64,000 bases of DNA from a virus: the IMG/VR virus record IMGVR_UViG_3300022926_001804, positions 1 to 64,000 of that record. The stretch is one strand, 5' to 3'. Below, in pieces: positions 44,771-58,048 of this stretch. The notes below the pieces were generated by a model, which was not told the DNA's origin, ran no database searches, and saw only the letters and a program-made list of their open reading frames with translations. The position numbers were made by a program, and so were the translations under genes. Every line of letters begins with the position of its first letter. Within the stretch, counting starts at the first letter, position 1.

Positions 44771-45934
44771 ATGGGTACTTTACGATTAAAACGAGGCACT
44801 AAGACTGCACTTCAAAGCAGTCCTGGTTATACGCCAGCTGAAGGTGAACTCGTTTATACAACAGATAGCAAAGAAGTCTTTGTAGGTGACGGAGCCACAC
44901 AAGGTGGTATTCCAGTATCAGTATCAACGCAAAACTTAGAAGATCTAGGCAATGTACAAGCATTAGCCGCACAAAAAGATCAAATCTTAGTTTATAATGG
45001 TGCAAACTGGGCGGCGACGGATAACCCAGCACTAGACATTCGTGGTAATATTTACGGTGACGATTCAACGCTCCTAGTTGATGCAATTAACGGCAAAATT
45101 GTTGGACCTATTGAAACTACTTCTGTTATTAGTAGTGGCAATATTGTAGGTGATGTAATTGGCGATACTACAGGTACACACACTGGTAACGTAATTGGTG
45201 ACAGTACAGGTACACACTTTGGTAATACTACTGGATTCCATACAGGTGATACTAAAGGTAGTGTGTTTGGTGATGATAGCGGACTACTAGTAGACGGTAT
45301 TAAAGGTTTTATTGTTGGACCTATTCTAACTGAAACAACTCTTACAATTAGACAAGACGCACCTGCTCCAGTTAACAGTCTCTTAATTCAAGCACATTCT
45401 GCAGATGGTGCAACAGGACCAAAAATTAGAACTGAAGGTTCACGTGGTACTCTTGACAATCCGTTAGCTGTAATTGGTGGCACTACAGGTGACGCACTTA
45501 CAGATATTCACGGTTTTGGTTGGGACGGAACTCAACAAACATTAGCTGGACAAATTAAAATTGCAGTTGATCTAGACGAAACAGTGTCAGACGGTATTAT
45601 ACCTGGAAGAATATTATTCCTACCATCAAACCAAACGGGCAATGTTACACTTGCACAAGTTATGACTTGGAATAGTAAAGGCAGACTTGGCTTAGGTACT
45701 AACAGACCTGATAACGTATTACACGTAGCAGGCGATGCAAAAATTACTACTGACCTTGAAGTACAAGGTACAGCAACAATAAACAACAGTATTAACACTG
45801 GATATCATCAGTTTGCTAGTTTGACTACTATTGAACGTGATGCACTTACTCCAGTTAACGGAATGGTTATTTATAATTCAGATACTGAAAAATTCCAAGG
45901 CCGCGAAAACGGATCATGGGTTAACTTAGTCTAA
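44771..45934 (+). CDS. Tail-fibre/appendage-like protein
   Basis: A 387-residue protein. It opens MGTLRLKRGTKTALQ followed by a GYTPAEGELVYTTDSKEVF-type motif, as in many phage fibre or baseplate appendage proteins of marine phages. A Gly/Asp/Thr/His-rich repeat region (about 115-175), duplicated 18-residue units, and a helical-beta C-terminus (KFQGRENGSWVNLV) follow. Likely binds the host surface. It ends tail-to-tail with the reverse ligase gene, sharing 9 bases. Confidence 0.7.
   Translation: MGTLRLKRGTKTALQSSPGYTPAEGELVYTTDSKEVFVGDGATQGGIPVSVSTQNLEDLGNVQALAAQKDQILVYNGANWAATDNPALDIRGNIYGDDSTLLVDAINGKIVGPIETTSVISSGNIVGDVIGDTTGTHTGNVIGDSTGTHFGNTTGFHTGDTKGSVFGDDSGLLVDGIKGFIVGPILTETTLTIRQDAPAPVNSLLIQAHSADGATGPKIRTEGSRGTLDNPLAVIGGTTGDALTDIHGFGWDGTQQTLAGQIKIAVDLDETVSDGIIPGRILFLPSNQTGNVTLAQVMTWNSKGRLGLGTNRPDNVLHVAGDAKITTDLEVQGTATINNSINTGYHQFASLTTIERDALTPVNGMVIYNSDTEKFQGRENGSWVNLV
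45059..45325 (+). repeat. Duplicated 18-residue unit flanking a Gly-rich repeat in the fibre gene
   Basis: The 54-base units 45059-45112 and 45272-45325 encode two near-identical stretches (DDS-x-LLVD-x-I-x-G-x-IVGPI). Between them lie G-[DN]-x-x-G-x-H repeats. Such modular repeats let fibres lengthen or recombine. Confidence 0.75.
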
Positions 45935-45937
45935 GTT
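45923..45937. terminator. Short inverted repeat at the convergent gene end
   Basis: AACTTAG-T-CTAAGTT spans both stop codons of the convergent fibre and ligase genes. It could serve as a weak bidirectional terminator, but the one-base loop is too tight for a full hairpin and no U-tract is strong. Confidence 0.35.
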
Positions 45938-47089
45938 ATACTGTTTAAGTAATTCTTTTCTACTTATTTTACCTTGTCCTTTACGTGGAATACTTTCTAC
46001 GTAAAAGACCTTCTTAGGTATTTTATACCATGCAATTTCTTTAGATAATTGTTCTGTATCTATTTGACCAACAACTACTGCATAAACACTATCGTAGCCA
46101 AACACTACACAATCTATTGCTCCACATTTAATTAATGCTTCTTCTACTTCGTAAGGCATAATTTTAATACCTTCTTGGTTAATTACATCTTTAACTCTAC
46201 CAGTAATAAACAAAAATCCTTCATCGTCGATATATCCTAAGTCTCCAGTATGATAACCATCAACTACAATTTCACCATTATCAAATGTTACAGTTTTATT
46301 TGGTAACACAAATCCAACGCTACCATGTTTTTGAGGATAATGCATAATACTAATTGTTCCTGTTTCATTTAGCCCATATGAATCAGTTGTAATACAATTA
46401 AAATAATTTTGTACTTCATATTTAAAATCTTTGTACATAGGTGCTCCGACTGTACGAATGTGTCGTACACTCATAGTTTCGTACGGTACTTTGCAATACT
46501 TCATTAATTTTAATAAAATACTAGGATTAGCTACAAAGAACGTAGGTTTAACTTTAGGCCATGATTCCCATACGTTATCTAAAACATAATATGTTGCACC
46601 AGTTCTATAACAAATTGAGAATAATTGAAAGCCTATACAAGCCCAAAGTGGAATACAATTTACAGTAGAATCTTTATTTGTAATATTAGCATGTATTTGT
46701 ATGTTTGTATCTAAACCTTCAGTGTCATGATCATCTCTTGTTAGTGGTATTAATCTAAGTGCATCAGTACTACCGCTTGATACAAACGCTGTTATCTCGT
46801 CATCATTACATTGATTATATCTAGGCTCTGGTAATACATCGTCCCATATATCAACATCATAATACTTACGTTCGATCTCTGTTGCTTTGTAGTCCATTAC
46901 TACAACACTGCATACACTCATTACTCCGTATATTTTCATTAGATTAGTACAATTACTGTATACTCCTAATCTACAAGTTTTATCGTATCCTGCATCAATT
47001 AATTCTTTAGCATAACTTTGTGCTAAAGAATCAAATTGTTCTTTTGTATATGTATCACCATTCTCGAAAGAAAGTATTATATTGTTCAC
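45926..47089 (-). CDS. AMP-forming acyl/aryl ligase-like protein (ANL superfamily)
   Basis: A 387-residue adenylating enzyme. Motifs: AFVSSGSTDALR (phosphate loop, about 101-112), YGLNETG (A5), HTGDLGYIDDEGFLFITGR (A7/A8), and a C-terminal domain with RKGQGKISRKEL bearing the catalytic Lys. It is shorter than normal (about 500) because the N-terminal region is reduced. It would activate a carboxylic acid as the AMP ester, then pass it to CoA or another acceptor. Last gene of the TctA-TctC operon, overlapping TctC by four bases. Confidence 0.8.
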   Translation of the reverse strand: MNNIILSFENGDTYTKEQFDSLAQSYAKELIDAGYDKTCRLGVYSNCTNLMKIYGVMSVCSVVVMDYKATEIERKYYDVDIWDDVLPEPRYNQCNDDEITAFVSSGSTDALRLIPLTRDDHDTEGLDTNIQIHANITNKDSTVNCIPLWACIGFQLFSICYRTGATYYVLDNVWESWPKVKPTFFVANPSILLKLMKYCKVPYETMSVRHIRTVGAPMYKDFKYEVQNYFNCITTDSYGLNETGTISIMHYPQKHGSVGFVLPNKTVTFDNGEIVVDGYHTGDLGYIDDEGFLFITGRVKDVINQEGIKIMPYEVEEALIKCGAIDCVVFGYDSVYAVVVGQIDTEQLSKEIAWYKIPKKVFYVESIPRKGQGKISRKELLKQYNLD

Positions 47090-48138
47090 TTTTTAATTAT
47101 TCCTGGTTTAAGTACACTAGCTAATCCTAATGCTTCTTTATTGAATTTAACAAGATTTGTTAATGCATCTAGTGTTACAAGACTCATTAATGTATCTCTA
47201 TGTGCATTTCCGTCAGCGCCAATTTTCCAATTATAAACGCCAACTTTGTTTTCTATAATTTTCTTACTATCTTTATTTAAAGACATATCATATAATGCTT
47301 GCTGTAATTTGGCAGTATTTGGATTGCCTTTGCGTACCCACAATGCTTTTTGCATACCGTCGCGAAAACTTTTTACAAGTTTATATGAATCATAGAAATC
47401 TCCGCTTGGCTTAACACCCCAACGTTTTTCAAATAGTATTTCAAGTTGGTATCCAGGATAGTTTGGATCATCTCCATGATCTCCTGTTTCACTGTTTAGA
47501 ATACCATGATGAAACCAAATTTCTGAATTATCATCTGATTCAACATGCTTTTTATATGCCGCTGGATTTTCTCTAGTAGCGTTTAGTTCACCACGTTTAA
47601 ATGCTAGTCGACGTTCGCCACCGCTCATGCCTTTAACCCATGTTACGTTCTCTTTAAAACAAGCGATATATTCATCAACTGTTTTGTCTGGTCCACATAG
47701 TAGAAGTGTCATTGCGAATGCTTCTGGAACCATACCTGAACCTGCCGCAAATCTAATACCACCATAGTCTAAATCAATAGCACGATTCTTGCCTACAATA
47801 ATATTCAAGTTCATAAGTCCAATACTTTCGTATTCGGCATAGTTATAATCAACTTCTTCTTGTAGGAAACTTACACCGTTACCACCATGACTTACCATAA
47901 TTACATCATTGTCATATTGCATTTCGTTATGAAATGTATCAAATCCTGGAATGTCTCGAGCGCCAGGAATATGTACAATATTAATATCTTCATTGAGATA
48001 TTTTTCTAATTCTTTAGCAACGATTTCTGCCCAAACACTTGTACCATCTCCTGGTTTTTGTGGTACTACCATCGTATAATCTGCATTTGCTACAGTAGCA
48101 AACATTACTAATACTAAACTCATAATTAACTTACGCAT
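47086..48138 (-). CDS. TctC-type periplasmic substrate-binding protein
   Basis: Extracytoplasmic binding protein of a tripartite tricarboxylate transporter. A signal peptide (MRKLIMSLVLVMFATVANA, cleavage AxA) precedes a 331-residue mature domain with the opening YTMVVPQKPGDGTSVWAEI and later strands typical of Bug-family receptors. It overlaps the TctA gene by eight bases. Its ligand should be a carboxylate but cannot be read from sequence. A phage encoding it together with TctA is unusual. Confidence 0.78.
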   Translation of the reverse strand: MRKLIMSLVLVMFATVANADYTMVVPQKPGDGTSVWAEIVAKELEKYLNEDINIVHIPGARDIPGFDTFHNEMQYDNDVIMVSHGGNGVSFLQEEVDYNYAEYESIGLMNLNIIVGKNRAIDLDYGGIRFAAGSGMVPEAFAMTLLLCGPDKTVDEYIACFKENVTWVKGMSGGERRLAFKRGELNATRENPAAYKKHVESDDNSEIWFHHGILNSETGDHGDDPNYPGYQLEILFEKRWGVKPSGDFYDSYKLVKSFRDGMQKALWVRKGNPNTAKLQQALYDMSLNKDSKKIIENKVGVYNWKIGADGNAHRDTLMSLVTLDALTNLVKFNKEALGLASVLKPGIIKK

Positions 48139-49564
48139 AATCTATTCTCCTTTTTGATTTTAATGCCCAAATTAGTGTTACAATTATTATAAAAACTAAT
48201 CCTAAGAATATTGGTTTATCTAACAGTTTATCAAATGTATAAAGTCCTGACATTTGAATTGTAAGAGCCTCTATTCTGTCAGATAGAATAAAGGCAAATA
48301 GCAGTGCAGGTCTGCTAAATTTGTATTTCTTTGCTAATAGTCCTACCACACTACATATAGCAAGTATAAAGTAATCTTCCCAACCGCCTGTATATTGTAC
48401 ACAAGCAAGTACTATAAAGCCTAATAGCAACGGAAAGTAGTATTTGTAGGGTATTTGTGCTATTCGGGCTATAAATGGCGTCGTAAACAAGCATACAGCG
48501 CCTACAAGCACTGTTGCAAGCATAAAGCCGTATAACATACTATCAAAGAATTTAGTGTCATTTGCAAGCTCTAAGGTACCTAATTCAAAATTTAAATATG
48601 CAAACAAGGCCATTACAATGGCAGCAAAGGGTGCGCCTGGAATACCAAACAGTACTGTAGGAATCATGCTGGTTGCTTTTTGTGCATTGTTAGCACCTTC
48701 TGGTCCTATAACACCTTTGATATTTCCATTACCAAACTTGTCTTTAGGATGACTTGCAACTGTCGAACTGTATGCCATCCAATCTGCAACTGCGCCGCCT
48801 AATCCGGGCAATAAGCCGACAAATGCGCCAATGATTCCTCCACGCAATGCATCACGTTTATTATTCCAGACAGCAAGTATTCCTTCTTTAGTTTGTGTAC
48901 CATTTGCAAATGCTGGATTGCTAGTATTTGTACGATATTTAAGACCGCTTAATAATTCTGGAATAGCAAACAATCCGGCAACTAACGGCATTAATTGTAC
49001 GCCTGCGCCAAGATATTCCCAACCGCCGGTCCATCGGTCTACATTAGTTGTAGGATCAACTCCTATTAATCCTATAAACATACCAAAGCACAATGCAATT
49101 ACACTTCTAACCCAAAACTTATTTGTTATAAATGTTACGCATACTAACGCTAACATTGTAAATGCCCATAATTCTGGAACACCAAATATCATTATTAGAT
49201 CAGTATAATAAGGTAACAAGAAGAATGTAAGTGACCCCCATATTAATCCGTTCAATGTACTTGTAGTTACTGCGGCGCTAATAGCATATGTTGCTTTACC
49301 CTGTAGTGCTAATGGAAAGCCGTCTACCATAGTTGCCGCGGCTGAGTTTGCACCAGGTATTCCTAACAGTACACCTGTATAAGTATCACCTGTTGTGCTT
49401 GCGGCTACAACTGCCATAACAAATATAACTGCTAGATACGGATCTGGAAATAAAGTAATAAATGAAAATACAAATATTAAACCTGTAGTTGCTCCTGCAC
49501 CTGGCAGAATACCAATTATTAATCCATAAAATGTTCCTGCGAGTAGTGCCAATATCGAAGCCAA
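48131..49564 (-). CDS. TctA-type transporter permease
   Basis: Large membrane subunit of a tripartite tricarboxylate transporter. 477 residues with about 11-12 hydrophobic segments. The family signatures are clear: a first Gly-rich segment GILPGAGATTGLIF, later LGIPGANSAAATMVDGFPL, FVGLLPGLGGAVADWMAYS and IPTVLFGIPGAPFAAIVMALF. First gene of a three-gene reverse operon with TctC and an ANL ligase. The small TctB subunit is not seen. AAGGAG lies upstream of the start. Confidence 0.9.
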   Translation of the reverse strand: MASILALLAGTFYGLIIGILPGAGATTGLIFVFSFITLFPDPYLAVIFVMAVVAASTTGDTYTGVLLGIPGANSAAATMVDGFPLALQGKATYAISAAVTTSTLNGLIWGSLTFFLLPYYTDLIMIFGVPELWAFTMLALVCVTFITNKFWVRSVIALCFGMFIGLIGVDPTTNVDRWTGGWEYLGAGVQLMPLVAGLFAIPELLSGLKYRTNTSNPAFANGTQTKEGILAVWNNKRDALRGGIIGAFVGLLPGLGGAVADWMAYSSTVASHPKDKFGNGNIKGVIGPEGANNAQKATSMIPTVLFGIPGAPFAAIVMALFAYLNFELGTLELANDTKFFDSMLYGFMLATVLVGAVCLFTTPFIARIAQIPYKYYFPLLLGFIVLACVQYTGGWEDYFILAICSVVGLLAKKYKFSRPALLFAFILSDRIEALTIQMSGLYTFDKLLDKPIFLGLVFIIIVTLIWALKSKRRIDYA

Positions 49565-49578
49565 TATTTTCTCCTTGT

Positions 49579-49621
49579 ATATAATTAATTATATCAGGAG
49601 AACATTTTTTTGAAAAAATGT
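49579..49621. promoter_or_regulatory. Palindromic divergent control region
   Basis: Between divergent TctA and methyltransferase genes stand a 16-base palindrome (ATATAATTAATTATAT, 49579-49594) with TATAAT on both strands, and a second inverted repeat ACATTTTTT/TGAAAAAATGT (49602-49621). No -35 box is clear on either side. It may contain overlapping divergent promoters or an operator. Confidence 0.4.
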
Positions 49622-49632
49622 GGAGAAAAATT

Positions 49633-50358
49633 ATGAATACACGAATTTTTTCGCTAGTTATGAAAAATTTAGAAGAAACCTTTAATTTATCTAAGTACAA
49701 AGGTTTACAATTAAACAAGGATAGTATAGTAGACGACCTACCGTTTACTCCTGTGCGTAAAGAAAAGTTTGCACAAAACATCATGCACGAGTTAGATATT
49801 GAACATTTAGACTTAACTGGTACTATTGAACAATTTGTACAATCGTTAGATACCTTTTATATGAAAAGATTCTTTGGAGAAATTTGGAAACCTAATACTG
49901 ACAATCATACTTACAGTGGTTGGAATATTGTGGAACGAATAAACAAACAGAATCCACGTAATGTATTAGACTTTGGATGCGGATATAATCAATTTAAACC
50001 ACGTATTAAAAATCTAACAGGCATTGATCCATTTAACGATAACGCAGACTATATGGTAGATATTTTAGAGTTTAATGTAGATGAAAAATATGATCACATG
50101 ATTGTGTTTGGCAGTTTAAATTTTGGTGACGAAAATGATATCCGTATAAGATTTGATAAGTTATATAATTTATTAGACACTAACGGTAGAATGTACTTTA
50201 GAGTTAATCCGGGAATACTATGGCCAAAAGGACCATATGTAGATATATTCCCATGGACCTTCGAATTCGCTTACAAACTTGCTAAAGAATATAATTGTAA
50301 TTTAGAACAGTACAAAAAAGATAATACAAGAATATATTTTGAATTATTAAAGATGTGA
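49633..50358 (+). CDS. Class I SAM-dependent methyltransferase-like protein
   Basis: A 241-residue protein. NPRNVLDFGCGYN (about 107-119) is motif I of class I methyltransferases; LTGIDPF is the acidic second strand; YDHMIVFGSLNFGDE is motif IV-like. Substrate unknown. Start ATG 49633 has GGAGAA upstream; an ATG five codons earlier lacks one. It is a lone forward gene between reverse operons and ends convergent with the sulfotransferase-like gene, overlapping by 12 bases. Confidence 0.75.
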   Translation: MNTRIFSLVMKNLEETFNLSKYKGLQLNKDSIVDDLPFTPVRKEKFAQNIMHELDIEHLDLTGTIEQFVQSLDTFYMKRFFGEIWKPNTDNHTYSGWNIVERINKQNPRNVLDFGCGYNQFKPRIKNLTGIDPFNDNADYMVDILEFNVDEKYDHMIVFGSLNFGDENDIRIRFDKLYNLLDTNGRMYFRVNPGILWPKGPYVDIFPWTFEFAYKLAKEYNCNLEQYKKDNTRIYFELLKM

Positions 50359-51075
50359 CACGGCTTTAGCAAACTCTACTGTTTTGATAAAAGCTGTTTC
50401 GTTAAATTTAAGATCAAACTTGTTACATAATGTTAAGAAAAATTCTTTATCGTATAATTGAGAAACTTCTTTAATAATAAAATCTTTATCATCTGCCTTT
50501 TGTTTGTAACCGTTTATCTGCATAGTAAGGTCGTTAATTAAACATTCTTTAAATGTTATTCCGTGTTCGTTTGCTTTATCAGTATATAAATCTTTAAAAA
50601 GATAATTTCTATTTTTTGGATCTACATAATAATGACATGTACTATTCATCCACCTAGTATATAATAGTTCTATATCTTCAGGAATGATTACAAAATGTTT
50701 TGCCGGATTAAAAAAATTCTTTACTCTATCTAAATCTGAGTGCAGTGTATATACAAAATTGTTAGGATAAAGATGTTGTTTCCATTTTTTAATTTCGTCT
50801 TGTGAATATTCTCTACCTTGCTTTTCGGCCATATCTAACACAGGAGGAATAGTTTTGTCACATACTCCTTTACCTAAAGCACCTTTAAATCTTTTATTGA
50901 AATGTAATCTTGAAAAATTAGAATCGTGCATAATATCAAACGGTTCCCAAGGATTGATTCCGTTTTGTATATGATCATACCAACTGACATTATTACAACT
51001 AGAAATAATTCTTCCTGCAATATGTCCACCAGATCCCATAGGAAAATTAACTGTAATTGAATTATTATACATCAA
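50347..51075 (-). CDS. Sulfotransferase-like P-loop protein (tentative)
   Basis: A 242-residue protein. NFPMGSGGHIAGRIIS at residues 9-24 resembles the PAPS-binding 5' loop of sulfotransferases, and the Asp/Arg-rich middle and HFVIIPEDIELLYTRW could be the second nucleotide site. The match is weak and no PAPS source is seen in the window. Last gene of the six-gene reverse operon, overlapping the ANL core gene by 11 bases. Confidence 0.45.
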   Translation of the reverse strand: MMYNNSITVNFPMGSGGHIAGRIISSCNNVSWYDHIQNGINPWEPFDIMHDSNFSRLHFNKRFKGALGKGVCDKTIPPVLDMAEKQGREYSQDEIKKWKQHLYPNNFVYTLHSDLDRVKNFFNPAKHFVIIPEDIELLYTRWMNSTCHYYVDPKNRNYLFKDLYTDKANEHGITFKECLINDLTMQINGYKQKADDKDFIIKEVSQLYDKEFFLTLCNKFDLKFNETAFIKTVEFAKAVSHL

Positions 51076-51742
51076 GTCTTCCTAAATAATATAATCCTTT
51101 ATTCTTATATGTTACAAGATCGCCTGTTGCAAACCAATCGTCATATATACACATTGGACTTTTTACATATAATTGATTTTCTTTAACTTTATAATTGCAC
51201 CAAAATGTATTGCCCAAAATATTATCTTCTGCTGTGTCTCCAGGCTTGTACAACTTATTAATTACACATGGTCCAATTTCACTCATACCCCAATTTGCTA
51301 AAACTGTAGCACCTTGATCTATAAATGCTTGTATGTGATGTTTAGGAATTGGATCACTGCCCATTGCAACAAATTTACCCGTCAAATCAGCTGTTTTAAA
51401 GCCCTTAGTGCTTAGTAGTGCTTCGCACATAGCAGGAGCAATAAACGTGTGTGTATGACGCTTAAAACGCTTTAAAAAGGTATATGCGTTGAACTTTTCA
51501 ATAGTTATATCACACCCTAATGTATATGCTGGCAAACTTTGAAGTAATAACCCACCTGCATGAGTCATTCTAGTAACTGTGTATACACTACTATTTTTGG
51601 TTAGTTTTTGAGCAGTAATTGCAGTATTAATGCAGTGTTTTAGATTTTCAGGATCTCTATAAATTTGCTTAGGTGTACCTGTAGTACCACTAGAACTTAT
51701 ATTACATCCTTGTTTTAAGATAGTGTCAAAGTTCAGTTCCAT
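51065..51742 (-). CDS. Minimal AMP-binding (ANL) core protein
   Basis: A 225-residue protein. It has the phosphate-loop SSSGTTGTPK (about 16-25), NWGMSEIGP (A5) and DDWFATGDLVTYKNKG with YYLGRLDV (A7/A8 start) but stops there, lacking the whole C-terminal domain with the catalytic Lys, and also lacks the usual first 100-150 residues. It may adenylate with help from a partner, or be a specialised half-enzyme. It overlaps the aminotransferase gene by 17 bases. Confidence 0.75.
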   Translation of the reverse strand: MELNFDTILKQGCNISSSGTTGTPKQIYRDPENLKHCINTAITAQKLTKNSSVYTVTRMTHAGGLLLQSLPAYTLGCDITIEKFNAYTFLKRFKRHTHTFIAPAMCEALLSTKGFKTADLTGKFVAMGSDPIPKHHIQAFIDQGATVLANWGMSEIGPCVINKLYKPGDTAEDNILGNTFWCNYKVKENQLYVKSPMCIYDDWFATGDLVTYKNKGLYYLGRLDV

Positions 51743-52565
51743 ACTGTGTTTTCTTATCCTCGTACTTTTGTATTAATAGATCAGTAACCGAACCTGTGAT
51801 AGTCGTTGGTGTCACACCTCCACTTGAACTTGTAATAAAAACTTCGTCTGCTGATAAAAACATTTGTTGTGTAATTGGCATACGCTTAAAAGTAATATTG
51901 TTTTCTTTAGCAATATCTTCTACAACACTCATAGTAATACCTTTAAGAACATTCTTATCTGATGTTTTAATTACTCCGTCTTTAACAATTCCAACATTAA
52001 ACCCTGGACCTTCTGTAACAAATCCGTCTACATCAACTAATACTGTAGTATCAAAGCCGGCAGGAGTTTTACGTTGACTAAGTGTTAAATCTATCCAAGC
52101 CATGTTTTTATATTCTTGTCCATAGTAATCATCGTTAACTCTATTTGTATTTTTGTCCAAATACAGTTTTACCATCGGTGTACTTGCTATAGGATAACTT
52201 GGTTTAATATACATTGCAAAATTTACAGGACAGTTTTCTAAGTCTCTAGGATTACCACTAGGCGGAAATCCTCTCCAGATTATAAACCATACAAATGCAT
52301 TATCAATTGGATTACGCTTTGCTAATTCTTTAATAATCTCTAGAGGATCGACGTCTGGAATAGTTAGTCCGTAGCGTTCTGCACTATTACGGAATCTTTG
52401 CAAGTGTCTTTCATAACAAAATGCTTTGCCGTTGTATACTGGCATAACATCATATGTAGCATCACAATGAATGAAACCAAAGTCAAGTATACTTGGTCCA
52501 ATCTCTCCTAACGGTTTGTATTCACCGTTTTTATATGCTAATAAGTCTAATACGTTAGTCATCAA
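51726..52565 (-). CDS. Class IV PLP enzyme (branched-chain/D-amino-acid aminotransferase or aminodeoxychorismate lyase type)
   Basis: A 279-residue fold-type IV PLP enzyme. The Schiff-base Lys is probably Lys153 in EYKNMAWID; GFVTEGPGFNVGIV (about 181-194) is the phosphate-side motif with Glu185; VLKGITMSVV and SADEVFITSSSGGVTP (about 255-270) complete the signature. It resembles IlvE/Dat/PabC equally. Overlaps the membrane protein gene and the ANL core. Likely makes or uses an amino acid building block. Confidence 0.85.
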   Translation of the reverse strand: MMTNVLDLLAYKNGEYKPLGEIGPSILDFGFIHCDATYDVMPVYNGKAFCYERHLQRFRNSAERYGLTIPDVDPLEIIKELAKRNPIDNAFVWFIIWRGFPPSGNPRDLENCPVNFAMYIKPSYPIASTPMVKLYLDKNTNRVNDDYYGQEYKNMAWIDLTLSQRKTPAGFDTTVLVDVDGFVTEGPGFNVGIVKDGVIKTSDKNVLKGITMSVVEDIAKENNITFKRMPITQQMFLSADEVFITSSSGGVTPTTITGSVTDLLIQKYEDKKTQYGTEL

Positions 52566-52812
52566 AATGTACCTTCTTTAATTGAGGATCATCAGGCAAT
52601 TTTTCTTTGAGGACTTTTAAACGATTAATTCTCCATTCAAGGAGTTTAAAATCTAATACCCAAGGAAAAATAGCGTGAATCAAACTTCCTATAGTTACTG
52701 CTAATAAAAAGAAAAATTCGTTCATTGCTAAACGAAAGTGCCACCAATAGCCCGCATCAGGCTTACCGGCTTTATTCTTTGCTTCGTCTAAGTGTTTAGG
52801 ATTGTACCACAT
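52555..52812 (-). CDS. Small membrane protein
   Basis: An 85-residue protein with a hydrophobic segment NEFFFLLAVTIGSLIHAIFPW (about 31-51) and charged ends. It resembles short LIHAIFP-containing proteins annotated as capsule-biosynthesis-like (DUF6356). Overlaps both neighbours. Confidence 0.6.
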   Translation of the reverse strand: MWYNPKHLDEAKNKAGKPDAGYWWHFRLAMNEFFFLLAVTIGSLIHAIFPWVLDFKLLEWRINRLKVLKEKLPDDPQLKKVHFDD

Positions 52813-53353
52813 AGTCTCCTTTCAGCAAACTTCTACGTCTAGTGTATTCATTAATGTTTAATTTCCAGACGGTTTGCTCAGTGTAATATAACATCATTTC
52901 ACTATGTTTGTCAAGTATTTTCTGTTTTGCCAATAATCCCATCAACTTGTGATTACGAGCGGCTTTACCATTAGAATGTTCATGATGTATGTTTGTGCTA
53001 ATATATAGTTGATCAGTAGGGCACCATTCTATAAAACGAGGAATCATTTCACGTTGTGTAATACTGTTCCAATCTCCTTTACCTAGTCCCCGAAAGGTAT
53101 CAGTTTGAGGTAACTCACAGCCTCTAAACATAATGCGCCATGCTGTATCACCAACTTCAGGCAAAGGATGACATCCTGCTACTGCCACTATTTCACTATC
53201 TTTAATTGCGCAAAAAAATTCACCGTGTTCTTTGCACCAATCAAACTTCATTGCTTTTAAACTTGAATTATTTTCGTAGCCTAGTTGCTTTGCTTTAGAG
53301 CAAAATATTTCTAACTTAGGTATGTGTTCATCAGTAATTGTTGTAACAATCAT
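52796..53353 (-). CDS. GNAT-like N-acyltransferase
   Basis: A 185-residue protein with the strand order of the GNAT fold: EFFCAIKDSEIVAVAGCHPLP (beta4-like) and WRIMFRGCELPQ, then QLYISTNIHHEHSNGKAARNHKLMGLL. A clean R/Q-x-x-G-x-G/A acetyl-CoA loop is not seen, though FRGLGKGD may be part of it. May acylate an amine from the operon's metabolite. Overlaps the hydroxylase-like gene by four bases. Confidence 0.6.
   Translation of the reverse strand: MIVTTITDEHIPKLEIFCSKAKQLGYENNSSLKAMKFDWCKEHGEFFCAIKDSEIVAVAGCHPLPEVGDTAWRIMFRGCELPQTDTFRGLGKGDWNSITQREMIPRFIEWCPTDQLYISTNIHHEHSNGKAARNHKLMGLLAKQKILDKHSEMMLYYTEQTVWKLNINEYTRRRSLLKGDYVVQS
52886..52914 (-). promoter_or_regulatory. Possible reverse sigma70-type promoter
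   Basis: TTGACA on the reverse strand (complement 52909-52914), a 17-18-base spacer and a TTATAT/TATATT -10-like box. It lies inside the GNAT gene, about 75 bases upstream of the small membrane protein gene. The -10 is weak. Confidence 0.35.
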
Positions 53354-53982
53354 AGGTAACTCAAATTATCTGAAATAATATTTACAGTTTCTTCATTAAG
53401 GTCTACATTTACAACTATCATATATGAAGGTTTAAAACTAGTATTAAATAGGTAATGTGTTTTAAGAGTATCTACAAAGTACACACATCCATTATCCCAA
53501 TGCTCAATCTTACCATCAATTATAAAACTAAAATTTGGTGGGTTAACATTGCGTAACGGAATTAGTAATCTAAAACTATCTATTTTTGTAGTCTTATTAT
53601 CTCTATGAGGAGGAAAATATCCGCCGGGGTCGAGTTTTAAAATATGAGTTCTAAAAATATGTTGCTTTAGTGGTGCTAGACATGCTTGTAATTCAGGAGA
53701 TTTATTATACACATCTGTGTACGTTTTAAAATCTCTTTCACTATAGTCTGTATTATTATCTTTATTGTATTCAATTAAACTATCTAGATCAGGAATACCA
53801 GAGACGCCTCCATCAAGACTTGTAATACTTAATCCGTACCTATTAACAGACTTCCTTGGGTTGTAAGGTACATACTCAAAGTCTTGTTCAGTAAGGTTAA
53901 GGAACTTATTAACATCATTTAGAACAAGATTTAATTTAAACACTGTTCCGTATGCTGTTAAATGGTTGTAGAGGTTAATCAC
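53350..53982 (-). CDS. Aspartyl/asparaginyl beta-hydroxylase-like cupin oxygenase
   Basis: A 210-residue protein with Fe ligands in YFPPHRDNKTT (His-x-Asp, about 115) and LKTHYLFN (distal His, about 173). SFRLLIPLRNVNPPNFSFII and NGCVYFVD follow the PF05118 fold. The usual cosubstrate Arg position carries Ser/Lys (SFKPSYMIVVNVD), so activity is uncertain. First gene of the six-gene reverse operon. Confidence 0.7.
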   Translation of the reverse strand: MINLYNHLTAYGTVFKLNLVLNDVNKFLNLTEQDFEYVPYNPRKSVNRYGLSITSLDGGVSGIPDLDSLIEYNKDNNTDYSERDFKTYTDVYNKSPELQACLAPLKQHIFRTHILKLDPGGYFPPHRDNKTTKIDSFRLLIPLRNVNPPNFSFIIDGKIEHWDNGCVYFVDTLKTHYLFNTSFKPSYMIVVNVDLNEETVNIISDNLSYL

Positions 53983-54056: not shown

Positions 54057-54854
54057 ATGGCATATGTATACAGAAGCAAAGGTTCATATCCTCCTAAGAA
54101 TCAAAAAATAATAGAACATACGTATAAAGCTAAAAGCGGATTAGATGCTATAGTGCCTATCAATCCCGAATGGGAGAACATGGGAGTTCAAATAAGTGGA
54201 GGTATGGATAGTGCCTTGTTACTCTATCTAGTAGCAAAGACAGTAAAAGATAATAATTATACTATCAACGTAAGACCTATACATTTTGATATCCCTACTA
54301 AGTTACCTGTACAACCTCTTGCTATTATAAAAAAAGTAGAAGAATTATTAGACTTTAAATTTGGAGATATTATAGAATACGCTATTCCTTTAGAACAGTG
54401 TACAAAAGAAGCAACTATGTCAGGGGTTGGCAAGAAAGAATTTATTATACTTAAAATTAGAGAAATGTTAATGTCTAAAGTTGTTAATTTTGAAGTTAAC
54501 GGAAATACAAAAAATCCACCTGTTGAGTTTAGAAAACATTTTCCAAATGATGAATTTAGACAAAAGAATAGAGACCGAACACTTGACATTTACACAGGAC
54601 CATATAATGCTTCACCGCTTTCTCACTTAGATAAAGCAGATGTTGTAAGCCTGTATAAAAAATATAATCTAATCGACGAATTAATGACGTTAACATGTTC
54701 ATGTGATAACTGGAGAGATCAAATTATTGCGAAAAAATTAGATATCCCTTGTGGTCAATGTTGGTGGTGCTACGAACGAGCATACGGACTTAGTCAAAAT
54801 AATATTCAAGATCCTACACCTGTAAAGAAATTTGAAGATGAAAATTCCAAGTAA
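54057..54854 (+). CDS. QueC-like PP-loop ATPase
   Basis: A 265-residue protein. The PP-loop SGGMDS is at residues 47-52; SPLSHLDKADVVSLYKKYN (about 182-200) and LTCSCDNWRDQ plus PCGQCWWCYERAYG (about 210-245) give the helix and four-Cys zinc site typical of QueC (preQ0 synthase). QueC forms the nitrile from CDG. It could therefore complete the deazaguanine pathway, though it lies 16 kb from queE and next to the radical SAM island, so another amide or nitrile product is possible. Confidence 0.65.
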   Translation: MAYVYRSKGSYPPKNQKIIEHTYKAKSGLDAIVPINPEWENMGVQISGGMDSALLLYLVAKTVKDNNYTINVRPIHFDIPTKLPVQPLAIIKKVEELLDFKFGDIIEYAIPLEQCTKEATMSGVGKKEFIILKIREMLMSKVVNFEVNGNTKNPPVEFRKHFPNDEFRQKNRDRTLDIYTGPYNASPLSHLDKADVVSLYKKYNLIDELMTLTCSCDNWRDQIIAKKLDIPCGQCWWCYERAYGLSQNNIQDPTPVKKFEDENSK

Positions 54855-56019
54855 AACATTTTGCAGTATGGCATGGGATCATCAGTTTATTGATCCTACT
54901 GCACGAGTAAAACCATGTTGTAGGTTTGCTGAAAAGTTTAGACCAAAGGATCATAACCTAAACGATAAAACATTAAGTGAAATATTTTATGGTGACTGGA
55001 TGGAAGAAATCCGTCGTAAGATGCTTGCTGGTGAACAAGTAGACGGGTGTGTACGTTGCTATCAAGAAGAAGAGTCTGGAAAAAAGAGCTTACGTGAACG
55101 CTATCTTGATAACGAAGCATTGCCAATTGATCAGTTAGTTGATATTGAAAATCCAAAAATAGGTTGGATCGAACTTGCTATTAGTAATGACTGTAATCTT
55201 GCATGTCGTATGTGCGATAGTAGATACAGTTGGAAATGGTTTAATGAAGAAAAGTTAATCTACGGAAAATCGTTTAATGAAGTAGAAAAAAGTAAAAGTG
55301 ATATTACTAACATATATCCGTTTATTAATGATTTAGTTCATGTAAAATTTACAGGCGGCGAGCCATTGATGACTAAAGACCAATGGGTACTTGTAGATAA
55401 AATGCTTGCTGAAAGAGATTGCAGTGAAATATTTTTAAACTATAGTACTAACTGTACTATTATGCCAAAAGACAGCTGGATTGAAAAATGGAGTAAATTT
55501 AAAAAAGTAGAATTTGCTCTTAGTTTTGATAGTGCTAATCCATCAGAAAGTGAATACATTCGCTGGCCTGCTAAGTACGAAACTACAGAAGCAGTTACTA
55601 AACGTTTTTTAGAACTTAAAAAGAGTCACGGATTTGATGTACTATTGCGTAGTACTATTAGCATACTCAATGTGTGGAATATGCCTGAAAGTTTAGAATG
55701 GTGGTGGGAAAACGATCACGGATTTAAAGTTATGAATCCAACACACTTAACATATCCTGAGAAACTCTGTGTAACATCATTGCCTGAACATATCAAAAAA
55801 CGTGTTACAGAAAAATTTAACAACTATCAAAAAACTTGTACTAACCCAAAAATTAATAAAAATTTAGATTATATTAAAAATTTTATGAATAGCAAGGATG
55901 ATAGTTATTTACTTCCTAATCTTAAACGATATATAGAAATTACAGATAAGCATAGAGGACAAAACTTTTTTGAAAGTTATCCACAATTTTCAGATATATT
56001 TGTAACTATTAAAGATTAA
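54838..56019 (+). CDS. Radical SAM protein, N-terminal twitch type (family B, copy 1)
   Basis: A 393-residue radical SAM enzyme. Before the catalytic barrel stand Cys9, Cys27, Cys28, Cys71 and Cys74, an N-terminal twitch/SPASM-like auxiliary cluster site. The SAM cluster motif CNLACRMC is Cys119, Cys123, Cys126; KFTGGEPLM follows. The C-terminus shows a conserved ITDKHRGQNFFESYP. Two more copies lie at 60.2 and 63.1 kb. It overlaps the QueC-like gene. Substrate unknown. Confidence 0.88.
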   Translation: MKIPSKTFCSMAWDHQFIDPTARVKPCCRFAEKFRPKDHNLNDKTLSEIFYGDWMEEIRRKMLAGEQVDGCVRCYQEEESGKKSLRERYLDNEALPIDQLVDIENPKIGWIELAISNDCNLACRMCDSRYSWKWFNEEKLIYGKSFNEVEKSKSDITNIYPFINDLVHVKFTGGEPLMTKDQWVLVDKMLAERDCSEIFLNYSTNCTIMPKDSWIEKWSKFKKVEFALSFDSANPSESEYIRWPAKYETTEAVTKRFLELKKSHGFDVLLRSTISILNVWNMPESLEWWWENDHGFKVMNPTHLTYPEKLCVTSLPEHIKKRVTEKFNNYQKTCTNPKINKNLDYIKNFMNSKDDSYLLPNLKRYIEITDKHRGQNFFESYPQFSDIFVTIKD

Positions 56020-56332
56020 AAATAATGTGTTCGTTAATTGTGTGAGCGCCGCCTTCATTTTTTATGTCAGCAGGATTTTTACTACAAAATTTCTTACAAG
56101 CATAGAAGCAATCTGATTTATTCCAACTATTTTCTAATTTAGTTAATGCTTTACTTTCCCTTAAATCCTGTATGGATTTATTTTGTGTATGCAAGTCTTT
56201 TAGATCTTCTCCGAGAAATTCTTTTAGATCATCAACATAAGGTTGATTAGCTATCCAACAGCATGGATAATAATAACCATCACTATCAATATATTCTGCG
56301 GCTTTATTAATCTTACATCGTGGATAGATCAT
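56009..56332 (-). CDS. SPASM-like C-terminal half of a split radical SAM gene
   Basis: A 107-residue protein with CK, YYPCCWIA, DCFYACKKFCSK, the same Cys layout as the C-terminal part of the fused protein at 59.3 kb (CISCKYG, PCCHLNA, CEQVCKEN). It overlaps the radical SAM half by 20 bases in another frame. The A6 run at 56332-56337 marks the junction; one A fewer would fuse both. Homopolymer error, slippage or a true split are all possible. Confidence 0.6.
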   Translation of the reverse strand: MIYPRCKINKAAEYIDSDGYYYPCCWIANQPYVDDLKEFLGEDLKDLHTQNKSIQDLRESKALTKLENSWNKSDCFYACKKFCSKNPADIKNEGGAHTINEHIIFNL

Positions 56333-56936
56333 TTTTTATATTTTCTTCAAGTTGATTAATTGTTATTGTAGGATTAAATTTATCACTATTGCGATTACTT
56401 TGTACTATCATAAACTGATCAAAATTTAATTGTTTAGCTATTACTAATGCTTGTGTAATAGTATTTTGATTATATTTAAAAAGTATATGTTTCCATATTA
56501 ACTTAGTTGAACTATTATTTTTTCTAAATGCTTCTATACCCTTTACAATTAAATCCCACTTAGAATTTACTCGGTACATGTGATTATTACTTTCAATACC
56601 ATCAATACTAAAATTAATTTCGTCATTGGCATCAAACACTTTTGCTAATTTACTCCACCAATCTTTACTTCTATAACTTCCGTTAGTATGTAAAATTAAT
56701 TTAGCAGTGTTGTTCTTTTCTTTAATCTTACGTATTAATCCGATAAAATCTTTATGATATATTGGATCGCCGTGGTTTCCACAAATAATAATTTCGTCAA
56801 ACGTAGATGTTAAATCACTATAGTGCTCAATATCACAATCTGTATTTTGTATTTTATCTGAATATATTGTTCTTGGACACAAAGGACATTGTAATGGACA
56901 TCTTGAAGTTGGTTCAATATGAATTATTCCGGGCAC
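56313..56936 (-). CDS. Radical SAM protein, short type (family C), catalytic half
   Basis: A 207-residue protein with the cluster motif CPLQCPLC (Cys13, Cys17, Cys20) followed by IIICGNHGDP, LILHTNGSYR and FSIDGIE, typical of the first five to six strands of the radical SAM barrel. It matches the N-terminal two-thirds of the 59.3 kb protein. The C-terminal auxiliary part is in the next frame. It overlaps the family A gene upstream by 13 bases. Confidence 0.85.
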   Translation of the reverse strand: MPGIIHIEPTSRCPLQCPLCPRTIYSDKIQNTDCDIEHYSDLTSTFDEIIICGNHGDPIYHKDFIGLIRKIKEKNNTAKLILHTNGSYRSKDWWSKLAKVFDANDEINFSIDGIESNNHMYRVNSKWDLIVKGIEAFRKNNSSTKLIWKHILFKYNQNTITQALVIAKQLNFDQFMIVQSNRNSDKFNPTITINQLEENIKNDLSTM

Positions 56937-58048
56937 ACTACTTTCCTTTTTGGTATTTTTGAATCTGCACTTGAGACACAGGAGTTTGTAATGCAGGGCA
57001 TAGGGGTATCAAAGAGTTTAAATCCTGTTTCAATATTTCCAAGCGGCACATCGTGACAGGAATAGGATCGCTTAACGGAACCGTCGGGCTCTCTAATAAT
57101 GATTCCTTGGTATCCGGCATTGCAATTCCAACCTTTAAAGTTATTAAAATTAAAAGCATTAAAACGCTCAGCTTGATCCATGTACCATTTTTTTCCATTT
57201 TTATCCTCAAATTCTACTTGCATATGCCAAGGTACACTAGCGTCGTTGGTGCCATTTATTCCTTTAGGTATTTCGAATGACGGTTTAGGCCTGCCGTCCC
57301 ATTTTCGTTTACTTTCTGTGTATGCCCTTTGCGGCATTCCGTTGTAGAGTTTTTTAAGTTGTTCTTCTGTATATCCATCAACCACTCTTGAGGCAGTTGG
57401 ATCGGACTGAGGCTTAAGAGTGACATTGATACCTTGCTCGTGGAAGAACAGAGCGTTTTCCCAATCTCTTTCAAACCATTCAGGAACCATAACTTGATTA
57501 ATTGTAATTTGTACATCGTTTTCTTGACACAGGATTAATTTGTCTGCGAACTCCTGCATCTTCTCCTTTGTGTTTACATGTTCTGTATGCAGACTTGCTG
57601 TAATACTTGCCCTATGAAAGGGCTTTGCATAATCAACATAAGTTTCAAACCACTTCATATTTCTACTACAATTTGAAGTCATGTGTATACTTGTATAGTT
57701 TGTGTTTTCTACATCTTCTGCAAGATGTTTGAGAATGTCCAAGTATCCAGGATGGAAAGTAGGCTCTCCTCCCGACAAGGAGAAGTGGAAGCTGTTAAAA
57801 CCATTATCTCTTGCTTGTCTTTTTATTTCGTCCACTGTTCGTAGACATAATACAGTTGGTCTATGATCTTTTCTGTCACTGCGAGCGTACGGCCAGCAGT
57901 AAGAGCATTTATAATTACAAAAACGGCCGAGCAACCAACTAACAGTAAAAAGATCCCTATAGAGTAGAGTTCTTTGCCCCACAGAGACAATATCCTCAAG
58001 AGGAATTTTAGTAAAATCATAATTGCTCCATTTTAGGTCTTCAGTCAT
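56924..58048 (-). CDS. Radical SAM protein, family A copy 1
   Basis: A 374-residue protein with CNYKCSYC (Cys44, Cys48, Cys51) and FSLSGGEPTFHP. C-terminal GWNCNAGYQG, YSCHD and PCITNSC add Cys that could bind an auxiliary cluster. The two other copies at 58.1 and 61.2 kb share this plan. A reverse promoter stands just upstream, and transcription would start near the ATG itself, suggesting a very short or absent leader. Substrate unknown. Confidence 0.88.
   Translation of the reverse strand: MTEDLKWSNYDFTKIPLEDIVSVGQRTLLYRDLFTVSWLLGRFCNYKCSYCWPYARSDRKDHRPTVLCLRTVDEIKRQARDNGFNSFHFSLSGGEPTFHPGYLDILKHLAEDVENTNYTSIHMTSNCSRNMKWFETYVDYAKPFHRASITASLHTEHVNTKEKMQEFADKLILCQENDVQITINQVMVPEWFERDWENALFFHEQGINVTLKPQSDPTASRVVDGYTEEQLKKLYNGMPQRAYTESKRKWDGRPKPSFEIPKGINGTNDASVPWHMQVEFEDKNGKKWYMDQAERFNAFNFNNFKGWNCNAGYQGIIIREPDGSVKRSYSCHDVPLGNIETGFKLFDTPMPCITNSCVSSADSKIPKRKVVCPE

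Follow-up and report, generated by a model that had tools for sequence, protein, structure and literature searches.

A modular operon of a marine T4-like phage that may assemble and decorate a small amine or amino-acid-like compound

Bacterial natural-product clusters, such as those of the FeeM-type N-acyl amino acid synthases, contain a GNAT, an ANL enzyme and tailoring enzymes, and adenylation is normally driven by the A10 lysine of the ANL C-terminal domain. In pelagimyophages, the host recognition cluster (HRC) carries tail fibres, glycosyltransferases and radical SAM cassettes, and the report of these islands makes no mention of AMP-binding or aminotransferase genes in them (PMC7029224). 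Nothing matching a phage biosynthetic cluster of the kind described below was found in the open-licence literature. Here we analyse a window of 64,000 nucleotides (positions 1 to 64,000 of the IMG/VR record IMGVR_UViG_3300022926_001804), which belongs to a 146 kb record from a large marine bacterial virus and contains a six-gene operon at 50347–53982. We propose, with a probability of roughly 0.42, that these genes form a modular operon with which the phage makes and tailors a small compound, an amine or similar to an amino acid.

The portal (phrog_213, 1.2e-115), DNA polymerase and capsid genes identify a T4-like phage that is far from cultured phages. A preliminary description, made from the letters of this DNA, had reported six overlapping genes at the locus, and the six open reading frames are indeed present on the minus strand. 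They are transcribed in the order HYD (Asp/Arg-hydroxylase-like Fe(II)/2-oxoglutarate (2OG) dioxygenase), GNAT (N-acyltransferase), MP (small DUF6356-like membrane protein), PLP (fold-type IV transaminase), ANL1 (minimal adenylate-forming core, or mini-ANL) and ST (sulfotransferase-fold protein). All neighbours overlap by 4–17 nt: with the listed starts, HYD/GNAT by 4 nt, GNAT/MP by 17, MP/PLP by 11, PLP/ANL1 by 17 and ANL1/ST by 11, although ST and PLP both start with TTG-ATG, so that two of the overlaps are possibly 3 nt less. The overlaps recur in dereplicated relatives, being −4 for HYD-GNAT in 13 of 16, mostly −11 or −17 for GNAT-MP (30 relatives) and mostly −11 for MP-PLP (26 relatives). 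The ratio of nonsynonymous to synonymous substitution rates (dN/dS) against two relatives is 0.00–0.35 for the operon genes, which indicates purifying selection and real coding genes, and the frames remain open in diverged relatives. The T4 late promoter TATAAATA was looked for upstream of the operon and was not found.

Related phages were collected in a scan anchored on PLP (39 loci), which was repeated with GNAT (50 loci) and ANL1 (148 loci, 80 kept) as anchors to avoid ascertainment on PLP. Counts out of 35 refer throughout to dereplicated IMG/VR contigs anchored on ANL1 with at least 5 kb on each side. Almost all PLP-anchored loci show GNAT, MP and PLP in that order. GNAT lies near mini-ANL in 33 of the 35 contigs; of the two exceptions, one (L123) has GNAT fused to ST, and the other (L099) stops ~6 kb upstream, before the usual place of GNAT in that architecture. 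GNAT therefore accompanies mini-ANL in 34/34 contigs where it is visible, the ST-GNAT fusion included. MP, usually located between GNAT and PLP or ANL1 (14-sequence alignment), was detected in 23/35, and visual inspection of the stretch between GNAT and ANL1 picked out diverged versions in several more. The recurrence of GNAT and MP around ANL1 defines a constant core, GNAT-MP-ANL1, which is common to dozens of other uncultured viruses. The pairwise divergences of the three core genes correlate (r 0.56–0.84, reached in 0/500 permutations), as expected of co-inheritance. Scattered, independent distribution, which the preliminary description had named as the observation that would speak against it, is not seen for the core. 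Its view of all six genes as one pathway is not supported as stated: only the core is constant, and PLP (20/35), HYD (19/35) and ST (18/35) are accessories. ST and GNAT also occur as a single protein of 413–425 amino acids in two distinct contigs (L101/L017 and L123; natural fusions at L017:7364-8605 and L123:5661-6938), which is strong evidence that both act on the same thing.

The enzyme classes named in the preliminary description were right, as judged by Pfam and predicted-structure matches. In the core, ANL1 (51065..51742, 225 amino acids, AMP-binding 8.6e-16) matches positions 170–352 of the profile, which is the A3 to A8 core only. The A3, A5, A7 and A8 motifs are retained, with SSGTTG, NWGMSE, W..T.D and R222 conserved in 19 aligned relatives. 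The protein begins near A3 and ends at A8, and the C-terminal domain with the A10 lysine is absent in 19/19 relatives. In nine other phage records of 104–169 kb, mini-ANL is the only AMP-binding match where any was detected, and PF13193 (AMP-binding_C) has no match. A split ANL that is complemented in trans was rejected, since beyond mini-ANL itself neither an AMP-binding nor an AMP-binding_C gene turned up in these nine records. In the present phage, the sole AMP-binding_C match, below the cut-off, is a second ANL-like protein, ANL2 (45926..47089, minus strand; AMP-binding 2e-15, AMP-binding_C 0.08). ANL2 is clade-specific (5/35 contigs) and is a mirror image of mini-ANL, having kept the C-terminal domain with the P-loop altered to SSGSTDALRL.

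GNAT (52796..53353, 185 amino acids) has a Pfam match of only 0.07. Its AlphaFold model (predicted local distance difference test (pLDDT) 87) adopts a GNAT fold, and the best Foldseek matches are all GNATs (top 5.3e-6). A candidate acyl-coenzyme A (CoA) pyrophosphate loop (Q/R-x-x-G-x-G/A) reads RGLGKG in this phage and differs in distant members, and residues 88–93 are modelled with low confidence. MP (52555..52812, 85 amino acids) matches Pfam DUF6356 at 8.8e-5 and 23.0 bits, just below the cut-off of 24.4. Bacterial DUF6356 genes, found in 30 of 299 genomes, were followed as a clue and dropped because their neighbours were uninformative; by inspection these included an Lrp/AsnC-type regulator, a class II amidotransferase and others.

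Among the accessory genes, PLP (51726..52565, 279 amino acids, Aminotran_4 2.7e-35) is frequent. The best match in the PDB is the amine transaminase 6fte (9.6e-36 over 248 residues), followed by a second (R)-amine transaminase, 8zm7 (2.1e-34), and the D-amino acid aminotransferases match at 5e-22. The catalytic lysine K153 and Y38-D39-V40 are invariant across 20 relatives. By sequence, PLP is thus predicted to be a fold-type IV transaminase closest to the (R)-selective amine transaminases. One relative encodes a mosaic transaminase (L024:10001-10837), which is ~93% identical to PLP of this phage over roughly the first 120 residues and 50–70% identical thereafter; the genes that flank it are 88–100% identical to those of this phage. 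The mosaic indicates that specificity may be swapped by recombination. HYD (53350..53982, 210 amino acids, GTG start), the accessory first gene, matches Pfam Asp_Arg_Hydrox at 5.4e-6 and, in profile searches, a beta-hydroxylase (7v4o, 4.4e-6) and a proline cis-4-hydroxylase (4p7w, 0.002). Its iron ligands HxD...H (H126, D128, H176) are invariant across 15 relatives, as in AspH-like 2OG dioxygenases. ST (50347..51075, 242 amino acids) has no Pfam match. Its AlphaFold model (pLDDT 89) aligns in VIA-align with a tyrosylprotein sulfotransferase (Z 11.0) and the curacin sulfotransferase domain (Z 10.7), and sulfotransferases occupy nearly all top rows; the Foldseek E of 1.4e-3 is weak by itself. 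The model thus predicts a sulfotransferase fold for ST.

ST marks one of two modules. It occurs in 18 contigs and GMP reductase in 14, and the two are never found together (0/35; Fisher 2.9e-7, without correction for relatedness). Two mutually exclusive modules, an ST module and a GMP-reductase module, therefore share one core. The regular partners of the ST architecture sit downstream. TctA (48131..49564, minus strand, Pfam TctA 1.9e-93), the membrane subunit of a tripartite tricarboxylate-type transporter, occurs solely with ST, all 15 TctA contigs carrying ST. A relative of MT (49618..50358, plus strand, convergent with ST), a putative methyltransferase (Methyltransf_23 0.018, under the cut-off), is present in 14 of these 15. 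TctA and its secreted neighbour (47086–49564 together) recur as a pair in 15/35 contigs, the partner being present in 15/15 with TctA. This neighbour (47086..48138, minus strand) has an apparent signal peptide and is putatively TctC-like; a profile-based TctC/Bug assignment was rejected, as PF03401 gave no match at E 1 and a 12-sequence profile was without a PDB match.

The GMP-reductase module starts with HYD-GNAT-MP-PLP, continues with two 2OG oxygenase-like genes, a methyltransferase, a B12-binding radical SAM protein and a radical SAM protein, and ends with GMP reductase, ANL1 and a further 2OG oxygenase-like gene. The GMP reductase was identified at 1.7e-58, and the B12-binding radical SAM protein and methyltransferase were also identified; the three 2OG assignments were made from HxD...H motifs read by eye, because Pfam gave none. 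The GMP reductase carries the catalytic cysteine motif and directly precedes mini-ANL (L007:15694-16734 and equivalents). A flavin tryptophan-halogenase family protein (7.9e-75) lies in the cassette of six loci (L020:11321-12688, with equivalents in L017, L021, L027, L028 and L030), and in most of them replaces the methyltransferase and B12-radical SAM genes. VirX1 of a cyanophage is already known as a viral protein of this family.

The chemical steps, their order, the product and its destination that we infer for the operon are as follows. Mini-ANL would bind ATP and activate a carboxylic acid, GNAT would join the acyl group to an amine to form an amide, and MP may hold the enzymes or the product at the membrane. 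Where present, PLP would make the amine, HYD would hydroxylate and ST would sulfate, and in the ST architecture TctA may import a carboxylate precursor. Other phages would run the same core with 2OG oxygenases, a methyltransferase, a B12-radical SAM enzyme, GMP reductase and sometimes a flavin halogenase. Within the structural region, the cassette occupies an island next to tail-fibre genes: tail-fibre-like, g437 and vwa genes flank it in ~20/35 contigs, and fibre-like genes of this phage are found at 44771–45934 (by inspection) and 74084–80450 of the record. This hypervariable setting suggests that the product is placed on the host envelope or virion. Several observations weigh against an operon for a small compound. 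ANL1 lacks the C-terminal domain and none was found separately in nine other phage records of 104–169 kb, so that ANL1 may not adenylate; the CoA loop of GNAT is modelled poorly and is not conserved among remote relatives; many cassettes lack PLP, HYD or ST, so that the pathway is not fixed; and the profile search did not bear out the TctC assignment.

The same setting can be read in terms of protein modification, in which HYD, ST, GNAT and radical SAM enzymes would act on virion proteins, such as the neighbouring tail fibres, by Asp/Asn hydroxylation, sulfation and acylation. The tail-fibre-like gene adjoins the cassette, HYD is AspH-like, and the best matches of the ST model include tyrosylprotein sulfotransferase. 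However, the curacin domain, a sulfotransferase of small natural products, scores equally high, and the transaminase, the ANL core, the carboxylate-type transporter and the GMP reductase of relatives have no obvious role in such a scheme, which we consider quite unlikely. A substituent on a surface glycan is a stronger candidate, although still an unlikely one: an N-acylated, sulfated or hydroxylated group on the host O-antigen or on a virion glycan would alter receptor recognition or block superinfection. The resemblance of the island to the pelagimyophage HRC, whose genes include glycosyltransferases (PMC7029224), fits this idea, as do genes for a DegT-type aminotransferase and a carbamoyltransferase, which adjoin the cassette in some relatives and are also carried by the Pelagibacter phage Mosig. 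Yet the core operon has no glycosyltransferase inside it, and its transaminase is of fold-type IV (amino acid or amine) rather than of the sugar-nucleotide type.

TctA, the transaminase and GMP reductase all belong to metabolic families, and tctA and 2OG oxygenases are listed among viral auxiliary metabolic genes (PMC4164917), so the cassette might instead redirect host nitrogen, carbon and purine pools by transamination, carboxylate import and conversion of guanosine to inosine monophosphate, with no dedicated product. The tight overlaps, the exclusive modules on a constant GNAT-MP-ANL1 core and the fusion of ST with GNAT favour a single product line over a set of loose helpers, and conventional auxiliary metabolism is at least as improbable as modification of virion proteins. 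Thymidine-hypermodifying phages use acetyltransferase, PLP and radical SAM enzymes, and this overlap in enzyme classes, together with a QueC-like gene nearby (54057–54854), raises DNA base hypermodification as a further explanation. It is very improbable: the neighbours of the cassette are tail-fibre genes, none of the annotated genes was recognised as base-modifying, and QueD (PF01242) was not found in the 146 kb record, which may be incomplete.

Outside the IMG/VR contigs, GNAT, ANL1 and ST have no relative among 50,697 phage records, in which PLP gives generic aminotransferase matches only (at most 30%). When 84,980 bacterial and archaeal species were scanned, GNAT turned up a single time, on a contig of a metagenome-assembled genome (MAG) that also carries a phage portal gene, and a profile search of 398 whole genomes gave only that same match, the 397 others being negative; pattern-based scans miss distant relatives, so this absence is relative. 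The contig (L171, PBDY01000027.1) carries the cassette and, although assigned to a gammaproteobacterial MAG, is probably a binned phage. A bacterial origin of the cassette was rejected on these grounds.

The preliminary description had also suggested that the adjacent radical SAM island and the operon form one system. This does not hold for the island as a whole, most genes of which match within this clade only, and the island was rejected as an obligate part of the cassette. Only one of its genes recurs, a radical SAM protein and possible cassette accessory (56924..58048, minus strand, Radical_SAM 1.4e-13), with copies of 63–91% identity 2–8 kb upstream of mini-ANL in at least 13/35 contigs, an undercount because the flank covered 8 kb. 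At 56009–56936, a radical SAM domain (207 amino acids) and a SPASM-like domain (107 amino acids) are encoded by separate overlapping genes in different frames, and similar split pairs occur in several relatives (e.g. L004, L163 and L170). The QueC-like protein is of the ATP pyrophosphatase type and carries a CxC...CGxCxxC motif; a seven-deazaguanine pathway was discarded for want of QueD in the record.

A broader proposal, put forward tentatively and in our view doubtful, is that GNAT, MP and the adenylation core without a C-terminal domain form a virus-specific, constant coupling engine that in marine T4-like phages is combined with different modules for precursors and tailoring, each lineage making a different small molecule during infection. 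If so, dozens of marine phage lineages would carry interchangeable small-molecule assembly operons, which have no counterpart in cultured phage collections and of which none was found in bacterial genomes, and phage accessory metabolism would extend beyond borrowed single enzymes to dedicated, recombining biosynthesis. The three-gene core, in which an adenylation domain reduced to part of its N-terminal half is coupled to a GNAT, is a testable unit.

The setting is like that of the pelagimyophage HRC, an island bounded by VrlC and gp14: in both, tailoring enzymes are found together with tail fibres and radical SAM cassettes in a hypervariable part of a T4-like genome. The cultured Pelagibacter (SAR11) phage Mosig EXVC030M carries a gene 50% identical to HYD, which stands first in a different tailoring operon (desaturase, aminotransferase class I/II, FMN reductase, peroxiredoxin, TauD, methyltransferase, GNAT and Asp_Arg_Hydrox) that ends beside tail-fibre genes. 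A profile search of that operon found none of GNAT, MP, ANL1, PLP and ST of the present cassette. Mosig is only distantly related to this phage (portal 28% identical), and its VrlC and neck proteins have no tblastn match in this record at 1e-4, although divergence could hide them. The carbamoyltransferase, DegT aminotransferase, radical SAM and nitroreductase-like genes that neighbour the Mosig operon are 54–59% identical to cassette neighbours in L004/L007-type contigs, which suggests that operons are probably exchanged as blocks between distant phages.

At the level of single enzymes, PLP resembles the (R)-selective amine transaminases (6fte) in sequence over 248 residues, in the catalytic lysine and in the YDV motif, whereas its N-terminus is shorter and it is encoded in a phage operon, its activity being predicted. 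ANL1 shares A3, A5, A7 and A8 with the acyl-CoA synthetases and adenylation domains of the ANL superfamily and, unlike these, is without a C-terminal domain in all relatives. The ST model has the fold of sulfotransferases that depend on 3′-phosphoadenosine-5′-phosphosulfate (VIA Z ~11) at an identity of 7–10%, and use of this donor is predicted only. With no carrier protein recognised in the cassette and no member of it found in bacterial genomes, the operon differs from the FeeM-type clusters, which it nevertheless resembles in its predicted combination of acyl activation, N-acylation and tailoring.

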